A stretch of DNA of 37,512 nt, taken from a virus. The notes beneath the pieces were generated by a model. That model was not told the origin of the DNA, made no database searches, and saw only the letters and a program-made list of their open reading frames with translations. The position numbers were made by a program, and so were the translations under genes. The stretch is from the IMG/VR virus record IMGVR_UViG_3300045110_000153, positions 1 to 37,512 of that record. One strand, given 5' to 3'. Shown here piece by piece: positions 17,732 through 36,803 of this stretch. The number at the start of each line of letters is the position of its first letter. The first letter of the stretch is position 1.

Positions 17732-17996
17732 CGGGTTTCTCCTCGATCGGGTTTATTAGCTTGACAAGTGCTGTCAAGACGATTGCCTTCCGCGCATCGC
17801 TCTCCACGATCCTAGACTCCATCATCATGGCGCGCAGAAGGGTGGCGAGTGTCAGTATGGCCATGGCGTTCGACTGGTTCATGAACAGCTTCTGGACCTC
17901 GCTTCCCAGCGCCAGGATATCGGCTGGCTTACATTCCTTCAGCATGGCGCTCAGGAACTGCGTCGCCGCCGCGTCGAGTTCTGCCGCTGTAATCAC
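17721..17996 (-). CDS. small helical protein, paralogue of the gene at 17172
   Basis: A 91-residue all-helical protein, related over about 60 residues to the 17172-17459 product, including the E-V-x-x-L-x-x-N-x-x-x-x-M-x-I-L core. Unknown role. Confidence 0.65.
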   Translation of the reverse strand: MITAAELDAAATQFLSAMLKECKPADILALGSEVQKLFMNQSNAMAILTLATLLRAMMMESRIVESDARKAIVLTALVKLINPIEEKPDGI

Positions 17997-20157: not shown

Positions 20158-20481
20158 TCAGGCGTAGCCGGGACGGTCCGGTGCGACCTCGACCAGGGCG
20201 CCGTTCTCAAACCACGAACCGCCGTTGGCGTCGGACCATTGCAGGGTCCGCACCCGGTCGTCGTTCCAGGGGTCGCCGACCGCCTTGGCCTGCACCACCC
20301 GCATGCCGTCCATCCAGCCGTCCGACACCATGCGGGTGCCCAGCGGGGTCAGCTTCAGCTTGGCGAGCAGCCGCGGCAGATCAGCCAGCGCAGCCACCTT
20401 GTGCAGCACGACGTAGTCCTGCGGCATCGGCACCTCGCCCATGCGCCACAACTTCATCGCTTGTTTCAGGTTCGCATCCAT
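20158..20481 (-). CDS. phage protein, unknown
   Basis: A 107-residue protein from ATG 20481, which shares a base with the upstream TGA. An N-terminal helix ('NLKQAMKLWRMGEVPMPQDY') is followed by 'LPRLLAKLKLTPLGTRMVSDG', resembling a small winged-helix fold, and a beta-rich C terminus. No family recognised. Confidence 0.65.
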   Translation of the reverse strand: MDANLKQAMKLWRMGEVPMPQDYVVLHKVAALADLPRLLAKLKLTPLGTRMVSDGWMDGMRVVQAKAVGDPWNDDRVRTLQWSDANGGSWFENGALVEVAPDRPGYA

Positions 20482-20723
20482 CACGCGTCCTCCTCCTCGC
20501 CCGCCGCCAGGGCGAGCATCTCGGCGGAGATCGCCTCCGCCAGCATCGAATGGTGCTTCGCCTTCAGCGCGAAACCGGCCTCCGCCCACAGCCTTGCGGC
20601 CAGATGGTGGTCGGTCGCCGCGACCAGCAGACGCGGCGGCGCATCGACATAGGCCAAGCTCGCCGCGGTCGACGCCGCCAGTGCGAGGTTGACCATGTCG
20701 ACGGCGCTCAGATGCAGGCTCAT
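20481..20723 (-). CDS. small Ala-rich helical protein, unknown
   Basis: An 80-residue protein from ATG 20723 with GAAGGA upstream. Its promoter element ends about 27 bases upstream of the ATG. Ala/Leu-rich helices with His pairs ('ATDHHLAARLW', 'AKHHSMLAEAI') and an acidic end. Unknown role. Confidence 0.65.
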   Translation of the reverse strand: MSLHLSAVDMVNLALAASTAASLAYVDAPPRLLVAATDHHLAARLWAEAGFALKAKHHSMLAEAISAEMLALAAGEEEDA

Positions 20724-20746
20724 GTCAGGTTCCTTCTCGTTACAGA

Positions 20747-20785
20747 CAACAGATAATGTGCCTGACACACAATGTCAAGATCTTT
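20747..20785 (-). promoter_or_regulatory. cassette promoter-operator 1
   Basis: Reverse TTGACA (rc of 20773-20778), 17-bp spacer containing GTCAGG, then TATCTG (rc of 20750-20755). The palindrome CTTGAC-N7-GTCAGG overlaps the -35. It drives the genes at 20723 and 20481. Confidence 0.75.
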
Positions 20786-20796
20786 TCTTGGTGAAC

Positions 20797-21119
20797 GCGG
20801 CCAGCCTTACCCGCTTGACCTTTGCGCCGGGATAAGGTTTGCCCATCCGACCCCGCATGAGTTGATCTGGGGACGTGGTCGGTAGGGAGGCTGGCCATGT
20901 GGCCGTGTGCGTTCGTCACGTCTGAAAGGAATCCCGGCTACCCCTAGCTCGTCTGATAGGCGCGGCCAGCCTTAACTCGATTTTCCTTGCCCGCCGGGGC
21001 GGGTATTACCCTTTTGTCGGCGCCACGCATGAGCGATCCCAGGGGGACGCGAGCCGACAGGGAGGCTGGCCATGTCGCCGTGTGCGCCCGTCACGTGAGA
21101 GTATCCCCGGCGCCCCCTA
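20797..21119. repeat. two tandem copies of a structured 150-158 nt element, ncRNA candidate
   Basis: Copy 1 spans 20797-20946 and copy 2 spans 20962-21119. Both begin GCGGCCAGCCTTA and share GCATGAG-x2-GATC, GGGGACG, GGGAGGCTGGCCATGT and GCCGTGTGCG-x2-CGTCACGT. In each copy GGCCAGCCT pairs with AGGCTGGCC about 80-90 nt away. Inside it, CCGACC pairs with GGTCGG in copy 1 while TGTCGGC pairs with GCCGACA in copy 2. The sequence differs while pairing is kept, which points to a conserved structure. No start codon or coding pattern is evident, and no family is recognised. It follows the last gene of the 23285-21125 reverse operon and precedes cassette promoter 1. Confidence 0.65.
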
Positions 21120-21124
21120 TGCGG

Positions 21125-21475
21125 TCAGGATACCGCTGTCCTCACCATACGGTAACCCGCCTCGTGTGCCGCCCTGGCGAACTTGACCGCGCACTGCGTG
21201 GTGCAGAACGCGCCGCCGTATTTCAGCCAGTAGGTCTCGCCGTCCCACTCGGCGAAATGCGCCACAGTGCTATCCACCTTGTAGGCGACCGAGATCACTC
21301 GCTGATTGGTGTAGGCGCGGCATTGCTCGATCGAGCGCAGCGGCGTCGCCGGGTAGATGTAGCGATACCATCGACCGTCTTTCTGCCGGTCGTCCCCAGA
21401 CTTGCGTATATACACCGTGGTGGTCATCTTCGGCGCCGGTTTGTCGCAGTAGGCGCAGCGTGGCCGCTCAGTCAT
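21125..21475 (-). CDS. small zinc-binding phage protein
   Basis: A 116-residue protein from ATG 21475 in an ATGA overlap. It opens with 'C-A-Y-C' after RPR and has C-x3-C near residue 97, forming a probable zinc ribbon around a beta-rich middle. Unknown function. Last gene of its operon. Confidence 0.65.
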   Translation of the reverse strand: MTERPRCAYCDKPAPKMTTTVYIRKSGDDRQKDGRWYRYIYPATPLRSIEQCRAYTNQRVISVAYKVDSTVAHFAEWDGETYWLKYGGAFCTTQCAVKFARAAHEAGYRMVRTAVS

Positions 21476-21663
21476 CCTTGGGTCTCCACAGGCGCGACGA
21501 ACCGCTCGGCCAGTGCATACCACCGCTTCTCCTCCGCTTTGCTGACGCAGCTAAACGAGAAGTATCGGTTGTCGTGGTAGCTTTGCAGCATACGCAGCGC
21601 GGTCAGCGCCACACTGTGGCGCCGGTTGGTCTCCGCGATCATGCGGGCCGCGATGTCGGTCAT
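21472..21663 (-). CDS. small protein, unknown
   Basis: A 63-residue helical protein (MTDIAARMIAE...) with ATGA overlaps at both ends. No family recognised. Confidence 0.6.
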   Translation of the reverse strand: MTDIAARMIAETNRRHSVALTALRMLQSYHDNRYFSFSCVSKAEEKRWYALAERFVAPVETQG

Positions 21664-25282: not shown

Positions 25283-28200
25283 ATGTCGATGCTGACCATC
25301 CTCAGCGGGTTGTTCGCTGGCCTGCTGGCGCGCGACAGTGCGTCCTCTCCACCGACCCCGCCACCGGCTCCACCGGCTCAGCCGCAGTTCGATGCCAGGG
25401 CGCTGTATGAGGCGCTGATCGGCATGAACGGCGGGGAGCCGACAGACTCCACACCGTTTAAGCTCTACACCACGCGTCCGCTGACCGGGGCGGATGCAGC
25501 GCGCCTGCTGGAACCCGCCAAGCCGCCGCCGGGAGTGGTCCCCGAAGGATTCGCGCTCGATGCCATCAACAACCCGATGGATCTGTGGGGCGCCTCAGGC
25601 ACCATCACAGAGGGCATGTTCTGGCTCGGCTTCCCCTACCTCGCCGAACTGGCGCAGCGCACCGAGTATCGCCGCATCAGCGAGACCATCGCGAAAGACA
25701 TGACGCGCAGATGGTTTCGTTTGCAAGCAACTGGCGAGGACGACAAGACCGACAAGATCAAGGCACTTGAGGAACTGATGAAGTTCCACAAGCTGCAAGA
25801 GAAGTTCACCCTGCTGGCGTTGCTCGATGGATTTTTCGGTCGCGGGCATCTCTACATCGATACTGGGCAGACCGATGATACCCAGCTACTCAAGCTGCCG
25901 CTGCCGATCGATCCGCGCACCATCCGCAAGGGGAGCCTGAAGGGCATCCGCGTGATCGAGCCGATGTGGGCGTATCCACATATGTATAACGCCAACGATC
26001 CGTTGCGGGAGAATTTCTATCTGCCGCAATCGTGGTGGGTGATGGGCAAGGAGATCCATCGCACCAGATTGCTGCCGTTCATCGGGCGCGAGATGCCGGA
26101 TATGCTGAAGCCCGCGTATAGCTTCGCTGGGCTGTCGCTGTCACAGATGGCAAAGCCTTACGTGGACAACTGGCTGCGCACGCGGCAATCTGTTTCGGAC
26201 CTCATTCATAGTTTCAGCACGCCCGTGATGATGACCAACATGGGGTCGGTGCTGAACGCTGGCGCGAGTGCGCAACTGAAAATGCGCGCCGCGCTGTTTA
26301 ACTATCTGCGCGACAACAACAACCTTATGGTGCTGGACAAGACGACGGAGGATTTCAAGAATGTCTCGGCACCGCTCGGCGCACTGGACCATTTGCAAGC
26401 GCAATCTCAGGAACACATGGCGTCAGCCGTGGGTATTCCTTTGGTGGTTCTGCTGGGCATCAGCCCGTCTGGGCTGAACGCCACATCCGAAGGCGAGCTA
26501 CAGGTCTGGGCACAGTTCATTCACGCAGCGCAAGGATCGTTTTTCGACGCGCATCTGACAACGATCCTCAACGTGATGCAGCTACACCTGTTCGGCGAGA
26601 TCGATCCTTCGATCACGCACGCCTGGGAGCCGCTGCGCGAGCTATCGGAGGAGGAGGAGAAGACCGCCGAGAAGACCCAGGCGGACATCGACGCCGTCTA
26701 TGTCAATGCCGGTGTTCTCAGTCCCGACGAGATCCGCCAGCGGCTATCCGGCGAGGCGGACAGCCCATACCAGGGTCTGGACCTCGACACCCCGGCGCCG
26801 CCTCCGCCGCAGCAGGAACAAGACCCGATGGGCGGTGGCGGTGGCGCGCCCGACCCGCTCGGTGGCGGGGCTGGGGGCGGTGCTGGAGGCCCCGGCGGTC
26901 CCCCAGGTGCGGGTGGCGCGGCACCGCACGGCATGGGCACCAGCGCCCCGGCTGGCGGCAGTGCCGGGGCGGTTTCGAGCGGTCCCGGCAAGGTCGGCTC
27001 AGCCGGTGGATCGGCGGCAGCGCCGAACCCCAACAAGGGCAGCAAGGACGAGGAGGCGGTGCCGGAACTGGACGAAACCGGCATGCCGGTGGAGAAGAAC
27101 CGCGGCCACACCCGCATCGCCACGCAAGACCCCGATGCCGAGATTCACGTTCACCTGGGCCAGAACGACCGCGCGCACGTCAAACTCGGCGCCGACAGCG
27201 TCGGCGTGGTGATGGGGATGGACGCGCTCGACGCCTACAACCCGAACGAACCCCGCGGCCAGCCGCAGAACGCTGGCCAGTGGACGGCGGGCGGCGGTGG
27301 CGGCAGCTACGTGCAGGCTGGCGAGGCGGGCGAGGCGGGTGGCCGCAAGGCGGGCCGCAGCACGATCCACTTCCACGCCGATCCTGGCCAGAAGCTCGGC
27401 CAGCAGAGCAGCGGCGAAGGCATCGGCATGAAGTCGCTGGCAGGACGCGCGCTGCACAGCTTCGGCAAGGAAGATTACGAGATCCTGCACAAGTTCACCG
27501 ACAGCCCGCCCGAACAGCGCCAGAACATCGCGACGCGCAGCGTGCAGTTCGCCAAGGCGCTGCCGCGGATGGTGCTGAATGCTGGCATCGAAGAGAAGAA
27601 CAACGTCGTTCATACCGCGGGTGCGCTGCGCTCGATGCTGACCGGCAAGGGGCCAAGCCCTGAGCAGTGGCGCGGCCTGCGCAACATTGGCCTGACCGCG
27701 CTGATGGTCGGCGTGCCGATGTTGCTGGGCGATCCGCTCAGCGCCGCAGAGGCGGTGCATCATGCCGGTGGCGAATTGATGAACCACGTGCTGATCGAGC
27801 ATGCCGCCAAGATGGCGATCGGCGTCGGCCTGACCACGGCGGCACTGCGGCGCCGCAAGAAGACCGCGGCAGCGCCAGCGCATGACGCCGACCCCGCAGC
27901 GGGCGCCGGTCCGTCGCCCGACGACATCGCCATGGTGCAGAAGTTCCTGATGCAACTATCCAAGTCTGTCATGACGATGGATGGACCGACCGCGCAGCAG
28001 ATGCTGGAGCAGGACGAGGGCGCGCAAGATGAGTTCGATGCGCTGGACGCGTTCGACCCCAACGAGCAGCGCGACGCCAGTGGTCGGTGGGGATCGGGCG
28101 GCGGGCACATCCAGTATAATCTGCCGCCCGCACCGGGGACTGCGGACATCCCTGAGGGGCATATCCGCCTGTATCACCAGACCGACGAGAAGAACCTGGG

Positions 28201-29455
28201 TGCGATCAAGCACCAGGGGATTCAGATGTCCAAGGCCATGGGGACCGAGGGACCGAAGGGCATCTACGCCGATCCCAAGGGCTTCTACGGCGCACCGGCA
28301 ACCACGCCAACGGTCGAATTTCACGTTCCGAAGGCGCAATATGATGGACCGTTCGTCAGGGCGCAGTCGGTCGATCCGGCGCAGATCCTCGCCGTGCATC
28401 ATCCATGGCACGCCATCGCGCGCAGCCTGGAGGGCAACCAGGGCGCCATCCAGGCGATCCTGTCGGGCAAGCGCGACCGGCTGATCAACGATCCGACCTA
28501 TGGTAAGGCGATCCGCTACATCAAGCACAAGTTCGGCGGTCAGGCGTCCGACGAGTGGAACGAGAGCGATCACCCGCGCGGCCAGCCCGGTAATGCGGGG
28601 CAGTTCGGCCCCGGCGGGGGTGGCGGTTCTGCCAGGAAGGCAGAGGGCATCGCCAGCCGCGCCAAGGGCGAAGCGACCGAAACACGCAGCGGTGGATCGT
28701 CGGCAGCGCGCCGTCAGCAACGCTATGCCAAGGCGCGGAACGAGATCGACAATCTGTTATATCAACCGATCGACCTGAGTGACTTGAGCACTGCCAGACA
28801 GAACCCCTTGATTGCACCCGGCAGGCGTTTGGAGGAGTTTAACAAGATCGCGGACATCACCGCGAAGGCGTTTGATTTTTCCCGGTATCGCGGGTCAATC
28901 TCGTTCAGTGACGAGAAGAAAACTTTCGCGCTGAACGGCAAGGAATACGAATATGCCGGTGCTGCCTACATCACCGGACAGCGCAAGGGTGATATCGTGA
29001 TCTATACCAACGCGACCACGCTTGGCGGCGCCGCTAAGGTCATGGCGCATGAGATCGGACACGAGCAGACGCAGTATGTGCTTGACGTTTTGCAGGATGA
29101 GAAAGAGCAGATCTACCAACTGGAAAAGACCGAAGGCATCAACGCCGTTCGCAATGCCATGGACATGCTGCGACCGGAATATCGTGAAAAGTTCCCGCTG
29201 TATGATCGTATCAACCATGTGTTCGACACCCGGTTGCTGTCGGAAGAGGACGGCATCACAGACTACTCGCGCGAATGGTGGCAGGCGTTCAAGGATGGCA
29301 AGTGCGACGCCATGACCGCGATGCACGAAACCCTGGCTGAGATGTCGATGCTGGAATACGAAGGCAGCTTGTCGCGCCTGCTGTGGTATAAAGAGTCGAA
29401 AGCGTATCGACCGCTTTACGAGGCGGTGCGCGATTACGCCAAGCAAACCACATGA
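25283..29455 (+). CDS. DUF1073-type portal fused to ART-like and HExxH metallopeptidase-like modules
   Basis: A 1390-residue protein, preceded by GGAGGG. Residues 1 to about 505 are a portal of the DUF1073 type ('LGISPSGLNATSEGE' near 390-405 is diagnostic). A Gly/Pro/Ala-rich linker spans about 510-600. Three copies of a short motif (PNExR...W/F + Gly run) start at residues 650, 922 and 1090. After the first comes a helical region (690-860) with hydrophobic helices. After the second comes an ADP-ribosyltransferase-like domain (957-1085, 'IRLYHQT', 'KGIYAD'). After the third comes a zinc-peptidase-like domain with H-E-I-G-H at 1256-1260 and H-E-T-L-A-E near 1348-1353 as a possible third-ligand segment. 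Portals are usually 450-550 residues, so the C-terminal 880 residues are extra cargo. Processing or partial read-out cannot be judged from sequence. Confidence 0.85.
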   Translation: MSMLTILSGLFAGLLARDSASSPPTPPPAPPAQPQFDARALYEALIGMNGGEPTDSTPFKLYTTRPLTGADAARLLEPAKPPPGVVPEGFALDAINNPMDLWGASGTITEGMFWLGFPYLAELAQRTEYRRISETIAKDMTRRWFRLQATGEDDKTDKIKALEELMKFHKLQEKFTLLALLDGFFGRGHLYIDTGQTDDTQLLKLPLPIDPRTIRKGSLKGIRVIEPMWAYPHMYNANDPLRENFYLPQSWWVMGKEIHRTRLLPFIGREMPDMLKPAYSFAGLSLSQMAKPYVDNWLRTRQSVSDLIHSFSTPVMMTNMGSVLNAGASAQLKMRAALFNYLRDNNNLMVLDKTTEDFKNVSAPLGALDHLQAQSQEHMASAVGIPLVVLLGISPSGLNATSEGELQVWAQFIHAAQGSFFDAHLTTILNVMQLHLFGEIDPSITHAWEPLRELSEEEEKTAEKTQADIDAVYVNAGVLSPDEIRQRLSGEADSPYQGLDLDTPAPPPPQQEQDPMGGGGGAPDPLGGGAGGGAGGPGGPPGAGGAAPHGMGTSAPAGGSAGAVSSGPGKVGSAGGSAAAPNPNKGSKDEEAVPELDETGMPVEKNRGHTRIATQDPDAEIHVHLGQNDRAHVKLGADSVGVVMGMDALDAYNPNEPRGQPQNAGQWTAGGGGGSYVQAGEAGEAGGRKAGRSTIHFHADPGQKLGQQSSGEGIGMKSLAGRALHSFGKEDYEILHKFTDSPPEQRQNIATRSVQFAKALPRMVLNAGIEEKNNVVHTAGALRSMLTGKGPSPEQWRGLRNIGLTALMVGVPMLLGDPLSAAEAVHHAGGELMNHVLIEHAAKMAIGVGLTTAALRRRKKTAAAPAHDADPAAGAGPSPDDIAMVQKFLMQLSKSVMTMDGPTAQQMLEQDEGAQDEFDALDAFDPNEQRDASGRWGSGGGHIQYNLPPAPGTADIPEGHIRLYHQTDEKNLGAIKHQGIQMSKAMGTEGPKGIYADPKGFYGAPATTPTVEFHVPKAQYDGPFVRAQSVDPAQILAVHHPWHAIARSLEGNQGAIQAILSGKRDRLINDPTYGKAIRYIKHKFGGQASDEWNESDHPRGQPGNAGQFGPGGGGGSARKAEGIASRAKGEATETRSGGSSAARRQQRYAKARNEIDNLLYQPIDLSDLSTARQNPLIAPGRRLEEFNKIADITAKAFDFSRYRGSISFSDEKKTFALNGKEYEYAGAAYITGQRKGDIVIYTNATTLGGAAKVMAHEIGHEQTQYVLDVLQDEKEQIYQLEKTEGINAVRNAMDMLRPEYREKFPLYDRINHVFDTRLLSEEDGITDYSREWWQAFKDGKCDAMTAMHETLAEMSMLEYEGSLSRLLWYKESKAYRPLYEAVRDYAKQTT

Positions 29456-31350
29456 TCGAGCGGCATACGATCGAAGGACGGCGCGCAGTGGTGCAATATC
29501 TCACTGCGAATCTGGAACCGGCTGACGAGGCTGATGCCGAGTTGGTGCATGTGCTGTTCGATGATGGTGAATCGATCTGGTTGAACGGATTGAACGGAGA
29601 GGGCGCGCCTGCGGAGGATGCCGATCCCGACTGGCACGAGGAGGATCACCCACGCGGCCAGCCCGACAACGCAGGACAGTTCGGCCCCGGCGGCGGCGGT
29701 GCCAAGGCTGCGAAGGCAGCGCCGAAGGCGAAGGCGGCGAAGTCAGTAAAGTCCACACCGGTCCCACCGTCTCCACCAGCTTCAGGGTCGTCCCTGGCGG
29801 TTCCCGCGGAGGTGCAGAAGCCGCGGTCGAAGGAGGAGCCGCACGGGGTATCGACGCGCATCCCGTCAGAGCCGCAGCAGAAGAAGACCGGCATCAACGC
29901 GCACGAGACCGCGCAACATCTGGTCGACTACGCCGCGGTGCAGAACCCGGACGGATCGGTGGTCGCGTGGCTGAAGAAGGCGACCGATCTACTGGTCGGG
30001 CGCACTCCGTATACCGGCGCCACCGAACCCTATGTCGGCATGCGGCCTGGGCCAGAAGATGAGTCGCCACACGCGGCTGCGGAACGGTTCATCAATTACG
30101 CCAAAAGCAACATCCTGGCGATCTATCATGCGGTGCCTGAGGAGTGGCGCCAGCGCGCATCCCGCTGGTATGACGGCGCAAACACGATGACCGATGAATG
30201 GTCGAAGACCTACGGCTACTCGCACCAGCAGATGGCGGGCGTGGTGGCATCGCAGTCGCCGAAAAAGGATTGGTTCCAGAACGTCGAGATCGGCAAGCGC
30301 ATCATCGAATACAACAAGAACAAGCGGCATCTGACGTTCAACCAGCCAGCCGCCGATCGGCTGACCGTGTTCATCCAGACCAAGAAGGAAGCCGAAGCCA
30401 AGACGCGCGAGCGCGACCTCAAGAAGGGCAAGACGCCGGTCGCCGAAGCGGATCTCGACTCCACGCTGTTTCAGCATATGCAGGACAAGTTCCACAAACC
30501 GGATGGCTCGTGGATGAAGCTGGGCGAGTTGGAAGACCCGGTCGAGCGCGCGGCGTGGATCAGCATGTATGATCTGGCCAACGGCGAATCGCGCTACAAG
30601 GAACTGACGCCTGACGGCGACTATGGTGATTACGTTAAGCGAAAGGATCAGGAGGCGGTCCCGGCGCGCGAGGCGCGCGGTGCGATCGGCGGGCTGAAGG
30701 CGGTCAGGGCGACCAAGGGCAAGCCGTTCGTTGCTGGCGAGCCGACCGTGCTGGTATGGCAGACGACAGAAAACATCGCCAAGGCGTTGCGGATACTGGA
30801 CGACGGGTCCGACAAGAGCATCAGCGAGAACCTGGGCGACGCGCACAAGGTGCGCAATTTCTACATGAACATCATGTATCCGAACTCGACCGGCGGGCAC
30901 ATCACCGCGGACACGCATGCCATCGCCGGGGCGTTCCTGCGACCGCTGGGGCAGAACGACCTTGAGGTGATGGTTGGCCTGGGCAACGCCAGTCCCAGCA
31001 ACAACACGCATGGCCTGGGCGGCACCTACCCGCTGATCGCCGAAGCCTATCGCCGCGCCGCCAAGGAAGTGGATCTGTTGCCGCGCCAGATGCAGAGCAT
31101 CACGTGGGAAGGCATTCGCGGGATCTTCTCGCCGGAACAGAAGCGCGACGACAAGCTGCGCACTGCGGTCGACGCGGTCTGGCGCAAATACATGAACGGC
31201 ACCAGCGCGACGCCGGAAGCAGAGGCGAAGGCGCTGGCGGATGCCCAGGCGGAGATCCTCAAGCTGGGCGCGCCAGGGGGTGTGCCGCGCACGCCTGGGT
31301 GGGTCTCGATCAAGGATCGTTCGGCTGGGAGTCCTGCTTCAGCGGAGTGA
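29452..31350 (+). CDS. polyvalent-type protein with DUF7178-like domain
   Basis: A 632-residue protein in an ATGA overlap with the portal fusion. A short N-terminal domain (1-55) is followed by the linker H-P-R-G-Q-P-x-N-A-G-Q-F and a glycine run (61-83), then a Lys/Ala/Pro-rich tether. The main domain (about 150-560) has 'YGYSHQQMAGVVASQSPKKDW-x-x-N' (about 255-280), 'HKVRNFYMNI' (about 465), 'ITADTHAI' (about 484-491) and 'QSITWEGIRG' (about 550). This order fits my recollection of the phage family DUF7178. It also recalls the layout of helix-hairpin-helix DNA glycosylases, an inference only. It could be a nucleic-acid enzyme ejected with the genome. Confidence 0.65.
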   Translation: MIERHTIEGRRAVVQYLTANLEPADEADAELVHVLFDDGESIWLNGLNGEGAPAEDADPDWHEEDHPRGQPDNAGQFGPGGGGAKAAKAAPKAKAAKSVKSTPVPPSPPASGSSLAVPAEVQKPRSKEEPHGVSTRIPSEPQQKKTGINAHETAQHLVDYAAVQNPDGSVVAWLKKATDLLVGRTPYTGATEPYVGMRPGPEDESPHAAAERFINYAKSNILAIYHAVPEEWRQRASRWYDGANTMTDEWSKTYGYSHQQMAGVVASQSPKKDWFQNVEIGKRIIEYNKNKRHLTFNQPAADRLTVFIQTKKEAEAKTRERDLKKGKTPVAEADLDSTLFQHMQDKFHKPDGSWMKLGELEDPVERAAWISMYDLANGESRYKELTPDGDYGDYVKRKDQEAVPAREARGAIGGLKAVRATKGKPFVAGEPTVLVWQTTENIAKALRILDDGSDKSISENLGDAHKVRNFYMNIMYPNSTGGHITADTHAIAGAFLRPLGQNDLEVMVGLGNASPSNNTHGLGGTYPLIAEAYRRAAKEVDLLPRQMQSITWEGIRGIFSPEQKRDDKLRTAVDAVWRKYMNGTSATPEAEAKALADAQAEILKLGAPGGVPRTPGWVSIKDRSAGSPASAE

Positions 31351-36763: not shown

Positions 36764-36803
36764 CAGGATATAATCATCCTGACCTAAGATGTCAAGAGGA
36801 TTA
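36764..36803 (-). promoter_or_regulatory. cassette promoter-operator 8
   Basis: Reverse TTGACA (rc of 36790-36795), 17-bp spacer with GTCAGG, TATATC (rc of 36767-36772). On the forward strand AGAGGA in the element serves as ribosome site for the MuF gene at 36808. Confidence 0.8.

Follow-up and report, generated by a model that had tools for sequence, protein, structure and literature searches.

Why does an environmental phage carry, in the gap between two genes, a closely spaced pair of sequences that can each fold on themselves, and do these act as DNA or as RNA? The window, by which we mean the whole stretch of DNA analysed, is a 37,512-bp IMG/VR virus record whose large terminase has its closest isolated-phage matches in the Rhizobium phages RHph_N28_2 and RHph_TM3_3_3 (56% identity), and the site lies between the minus-strand genes at 21125-21523 (phrog_10186) and 20481-20768. 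An earlier note on this DNA had described two tandem, non-coding elements sharing an outer stem, with an inner stem that differs in sequence yet stays paired. Both copies are indeed present and non-coding, with a 38-nt block 92% identical between them (20884-20921 versus 21059-21096); the 9-bp stem GGCCAGCCT/AGGCTGGCC occurs in both, and the inner stem is paired in each (CCGACC/GGTCGG versus TGTCGGC/GCCGACA). Other parts of the description had to be amended. The tandem arrangement stands, but the site extends over approximately 20790-21120 rather than 20797-21119 with a spacing of about 12 nt rather than 15 bp, copy 2 having been described without its 5' pseudoknot strand. Likewise the stems are real, but two pseudoknots (the second of them probable) were overlooked; the stem taken to be outermost is our P2, with a further helix, P1, outside it across a conserved one-sided bulge of 12 nt; and the strand that was read is the complement of the RNA, the asymmetry of wobble pairs given below placing function on the minus strand.

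Homologues in three groups of uncultured phages

A copy taken by itself does not fold with unusual energy (z from 0.09 to -1.17), and the two copies alone therefore proved little, so that the evidence for the fold is covariation over 16 homologues rather than stability. An exact pattern built on both copies had as its sole match a 99%-identical strain (L002). Related phage contigs were collected by means of the window's proteins, and a relaxed search among them yielded three diverged elements, each matched by a five-sequence covariance model at E < 1e-25, a match by construction given that these are training sequences. The conserved core GACGNNCGCRCAYRGCNACATGG (window minus strand), scanned over viral contigs, gave many more carriers, and two relaxed patterns gave further ones. 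The covariance-model search that the earlier note had proposed, together with these patterns, has in this way recovered further homologues with compensatory stems. After removal of duplicates there are 16 distinct RNAs on about 25 contigs, generally of about 155 nt and at most about 188 nt. Each contig has a single copy, the window's phage and its strain being the exceptions.

All carriers are uncultured environmental phages, few in number, and they fall into three groups. Group A comprises the window, G017, G032 and G063, and G040 also has proteins in common with the window; group B, AT-rich and lytic, comprises G044-G047, G051, G062 and G067, where the terminase, if present, is approximately 46-55% identical to that of the window; and group C (G042 and G043) has almost no proteins in common with A or B. 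One contig, G004, is without a region corresponding to the RNA site.

Outside these carriers the searches were negative. The core pattern had only nine matches among 84,980 bacterial and archaeal genomes (L105-L113), all coincidental and in coding sequence, and a BLAST search with the element returned nothing real from isolated phages or plasmids. Covariance-model searches found nothing in five related isolated phages searched whole, nor in about 1,180 proteobacterial genomes, the latter being weak evidence, since only a small number of candidates was examined in each genome and a positive control was lacking. Two further matches were dismissed as chance, namely a pattern match (L004) in coding DNA that reads as methyltransferase-like, and a 19-bit match (L177, in G027) in coding sequence. 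Rfam 15 at gathering thresholds gave no match for the window and six homologue loci, and at E up to 10 only unrelated sub-threshold matches; ARAGORN found no tRNA or tmRNA genes in the window. A description of the RNA was likewise not found in the open-licence literature, subscription journals being outside the scope of that search. The suggestion of an undescribed phage RNA is thus borne out by homologues with compensatory stems and the lack of an Rfam match, and the family is new in the sense that it has no Rfam relative and no description in the open-licence literature. What is new is the family itself, together with a fold that has two pseudoknots (one of them probable) and a placement resembling that of a gene, orphan structured phage RNAs as such being already known.

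A three-way junction with one supported and one probable pseudoknot

Read in the minus-strand sense, the predicted RNA begins with PK2a, followed after 2 nt by PK1a and a linker ending in RUGAC, then P1a, the 12-nt bulge RCAYRGCNACAU and P2a; after P2a come CCC, the P3 arm (with PK2b), GGG, NAA, D, PK1b, D', P2b and P1b. All coordinates in this paragraph are on the minus strand. Copy 2, upstream on the RNA strand, runs from PK2a to P1b over 20958-21118 (match to covariance model R2 at 20955-21120, 111.9 bits). Its PK2 5' strand AGGGG (21114-21118) pairs with CCCCT (21041-21045), the probable second pseudoknot, and its PK1 5' strand CGCCGGGG (21105-21112) with CCCCGGCG (20992-20999). The P1 5' strand GGGCGC (21084-21089) pairs with GCGCCT (20958-20963), and the P2 5' strand GGCCAGCCU (21063-21071) with AGGCUGGCC (20964-20972); between them lies the bulge ACACGGCGACAU (21072-21083), a near-invariant block of the alignment. 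Arm P3 (21015-21059), closed by UGUCGGC (21053-21059) and GCCGACA (21015-21021), contains PK2b, and hairpin D was not found in this copy. Copy 1, downstream on the RNA strand, occupies 20793-20945 (match to R2 at 20790-20948, 123.1 bits). Here AGGGG (20941-20945) makes four of five pairs with CCCCA inside 20868-20874, the PK1 5' strand GCCGGGAU (20931-20938) pairs with AUCCCGGC (20826-20833), GAACGC of P1 (20909-20914) with GCGUUC (20793-20798), and the same P2 strands, GGCCAGCCU and AGGCUGGCC, lie at 20888-20896 and 20799-20807. Its P3 arm (20847-20882) is closed by CCGACC (20877-20882) and GGUCGG (20847-20852), and hairpin D (ACCU/GGGU, 20809-20838), whose loop contains PK1b, is the weakest helix in the window copies.

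In the model-fitted alignment of 16 sequences, which leans towards the structure, 93.5% of cells are paired against 73.9% in shuffles, 21 of the 28 nested pairs have changed on both sides, and the covariation score is 0.615 against 0.225; cells with both-sided changes number 94 against 28.4 in shuffles, a value that none of 500 shuffles attained. An unfitted MAFFT alignment of the same 16 sequences gave 88.2% of cells paired versus 73.2% when shuffled and a covariation score of 0.501 versus 0.219; again none of 500 shuffles reached any measure, and shifting the partner by a single column brought pairing down to 46-50%. Helix by helix in the fitted alignment, P1, P2 and the CCC/GGG helix are 100% paired, and both-sided changes occur at three of six pairs in P1, seven of nine in P2, all six in P3 and three of four in D. 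PK1 was left outside the covariance model, and in a permutation test of each strand with its own partner its helix scores sum to 295, compared with a permuted mean of 219 and maximum of 267 (exceeded in none of 20,000 permutations). With the link fixed at 2 nt and registers chosen by hand, all 15 homologues make six of six PK1 pairs (90 of 90 cells), and each column shows from 2 to 6 kinds of pair.

That this is a conserved structured RNA is near certain. Covariation shows that P1 and P2 make up a basal stem interrupted by the conserved 12-nt bulge, that P3 and D form the arms of a three-way junction, and that PK1 is a pairing of the 5' strand with the loop of D. For PK2, in which the 5'-most GGGG would pair inside P3, co-changes were seen to GAGG/CCUC in L008, L092 and L118 and to UGGG/CCCA in L096. 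Because an unanchored test was not significant (p = 0.51), we grade PK2 as only probable; if real, one strand would tie both arms. A resemblance of GACGGGCG to the complement of the 16S rRNA decoding region was set aside as chance, as this segment varies with P1 pairing (GACGGACG, GACGAACG, GACGGGUG).

The transcribed strand and the gene setting

Pairing in P1 and P2 distinguishes the two DNA strands. On the minus strand these helices contain 278 Watson-Crick cells, 10 G·U and no A·C, and on the plus strand those ten wobble pairs become A·C mismatches; with shared ancestry counted, they represent about six or seven independent changes, all in the same direction. Genes on either side of the RNA in the window, in L020 and in L065 are also on its strand. 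Judged from these patterns, the RNA is transcribed from the window's minus strand. A plus-strand reading was rejected on account of the same asymmetry, and the plus-strand ATG and Shine-Dalgarno sequence after P2 are broken in L008.

In all 14 settings the end of a same-strand open reading frame falls near the start of PK2a, from 16 nt before it to 12 nt after it; in the window this frame is phrog_10186 (21125-21523), whose stop codon lies 7 nt before PK2a of copy 2. Downstream, a ribosome-binding site and start codon follow P1b by 17-28 nt in L065, L092/L098, L095, L096, L100, L114, L118 and L150. In L008, on the other hand, a convergent gene ends 3 nt past the RNA and there is no same-sense gene downstream, and in the window the next gene is served by a separate σ70-like promoter, TTGACA-17-TATCTG with a dyad (20748-20778, minus strand), directly 3' of copy 1. 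The RNA closes a transcription unit in the window and L008, and probably also in L099. No intrinsic terminator was found after P1b, where the sequences are GCGUUCACCAAGAAAAGAUC and GCGCCCACCCUACGC and there is no U tract, and the space ahead of the RNA could scarcely accommodate a promoter; from this layout we infer that the RNA must be made within an mRNA.

Among the phages of the window's group (L008, L020, L065 and the window) the genes next to the RNA are unrelated, as they are from one group to another and in the third group. Most members of the AT-rich group, where the RNA sits in the replication module, keep both neighbours (a Pam3_Gp34-like protein, PF23977, and a 168-aa protein). The RNA is therefore independent of particular neighbours outside group B, and its persistence there while the neighbours differ argues against a role tied to any one of them. 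Its position relative to terminase also varies: in the window the RNA lies upstream of the small-subunit gene (by about 2.2 kb), in L008 downstream of the large-subunit gene (by about 5 kb).

Proposed role and alternative explanations

Our preferred reading, to which we assign a probability of roughly 45%, is that of a non-coding RNA contained in polycistronic phage messages, left over or excised as these are processed, and acting in trans. The RNA would be transcribed within a polycistronic mRNA of tailed phages, its compact knotted fold would survive the cutting and decay of the surrounding message, and the stable RNA so released could act in trans; one possibility is that its conserved unpaired segments (RUGAC, RCAYGGCGACAU and GGGCAAA) bind a protein of the host or of the phage. 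Flaviviral exonuclease-resistant RNAs are likewise built on a three-way junction tied by pseudoknots. That likeness makes nuclease resistance plausible here, although in the present RNA the 5' strand pairs with loops of both arms and there is no sequence or Rfam similarity. To our knowledge few phage RNAs are this complex, and the function of most is not known. GOLLD and ROOL are highly structured non-coding RNAs, largely of phage or mobile-element origin, whose function is open. They have been described as orphan phage-borne structured RNAs (PMC12286853), and the present family resembles them in being a highly structured non-coding RNA of phage, but they are several hundred nucleotides long with other folds, and the new RNA has no Rfam similarity. 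It is tempting to go further and propose a new class of knotted RNAs excised from operon transcripts and acting in trans on the host, perhaps on a defence protein, RNA polymerase or the ribosome, and retained by three otherwise distinct phage groups as the neighbouring genes change, though we regard this extension as rather less likely than not.

Several observations speak against a trans role. Since a stop codon always lies just upstream, the RNA might instead work in cis, in translation or mRNA decay; the AT-rich group keeps its neighbours in most members; and the carriers are few and uncultured, and the negative genome searches are weak. The main rival is a cis-acting intercistronic element, in which the fold behind the stop codon would block 3'-to-5' exonucleases or mark a cleavage site and so stabilise or separate the mRNA of the upstream cistron. 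It is the main rival because the 5' pseudoknot strand always adjoins a stop codon (within about 16 nt in 14 of 14 settings), and the ending of transcription units by the RNA in the window, L008 and probably L099 also suits it. Simple hairpins would do for such a task, however, whereas this RNA keeps conserved unpaired segments and a pseudoknotted core; the upstream genes vary; and phage genes are all so tightly packed that abutment alone is weak evidence. We consider this explanation unlikely, albeit deserving of serious attention. A cis regulator of transcription or translation of downstream genes, be it a put-like processive antiterminator, a riboswitch or a ribosome-coupled switch, appears improbable. 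The genes with their own ribosome-binding site some 17-28 nt downstream in the settings named above would fit it, and a ribosome halted at the upstream stop codon would presumably unpair the 5' pseudoknot strands, but L008 offers no same-sense gene to regulate, the window has its own promoter directly after the RNA, and no constant class of downstream gene is seen, these being unrelated between groups. The HK022 put RNA, also an RNA structure in phage transcripts without a protein-coding role, is about 70 nt long with two stem-loops close to early promoters (PMC9378689), unlike the roughly 155-nt pseudoknotted three-way junction found here behind stop codons.

We also think it quite improbable that the RNA is a ribozyme whose self-cleavage would cut the polycistronic message. 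The strand order A B C C' A' B' (here PK1 - P1/P2 - P3 - PK1' - P2'/P1'), the nested pseudoknot topology, the conserved core nucleotides and the location between phage genes all recall HDV-like ribozymes, of which theta ribozymes occur in phages and which require a catalytic cytosine as the first nucleotide of the J4/2 junction (PMC10879173). In the present RNA, by contrast, no such cytosine is conserved at the A'/B' junction (GGUAAGG, GUUAAGG, ACUAAGG, GGCAAGG, GUAAG), P3 is a long arm without a P1.1-type loop, the A' strand lies inside the extra hairpin D, the 12-nt bulge is conserved, and no Rfam ribozyme matched even at E up to 10. The earlier proposal of a DNA partition or packaging site, to which an origin with a folding single strand may be added, draws on the tandem pair in the window's accessory region. 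It is left without support by the wobble pairs that occur on one strand only (10 G·U against no A·C in P1 and P2), the covariation of the PK1 pseudoknot, the single copy per contig elsewhere and the inconstant distance to terminase, and we hold it to be very remote. Equally remote is a small protein or leader peptide within the element (RUG ACG GRC GCR CAY GGC GAC AUG...), since, for all that the start-like A/GTG is invariant and a frame MTGAHGDM... is present in many copies, this frame has 12 codons in L096 and L114 and about 60 in L095/L065, the Shine-Dalgarno sequence is not consistent, and the variable codons track P1/P2 pairing rather than synonymy.

The element is a free-standing unit among mostly unrelated genes in three phage groups, including pairs almost without shared proteins. 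As a compact 155-nt RNA with defined strand, boundaries and pseudoknots it makes function directly testable, and the covariance model can be used to look for cultured hosts.

Other features of the carrier genomes

A promoter unit, TTGACATcttaNGTCAGGNTGATTATNTC, is repeated on the window's minus strand at 36795, 36258, 35706, 34763, 34038, 32310, 23345 and 20778, with a weaker instance at 17777. These units contain a TGAC-N7-GTCA dyad inside the -35/-10 region, which is probably the operator of a phage repressor overlapping at least eight promoters. Several group A phages have, near the RNA, a gene for a DUF932/phrog_1221 protein (PF06067; 18371-19234 on the minus strand of the window, 61-98% identity in related contigs). 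In group B, a phrog_4828 protein with a dinucleotide-binding-like N-terminus (GAGQAGLLAA) is encoded just downstream of the RNA (L193 5370-7051 and homologues), next to a gene assigned by eye as thymidylate synthase ThyX-like. Finally, very long open reading frames lie behind terminase (window 25283-29455 and 29452-31350; L008 11085-16466), and these resemble fused or repeated portal, head-morphogenesis and other domains, with HPRGQPxNAGQFGPGGGG linker repeats and variable C-terminal domains.
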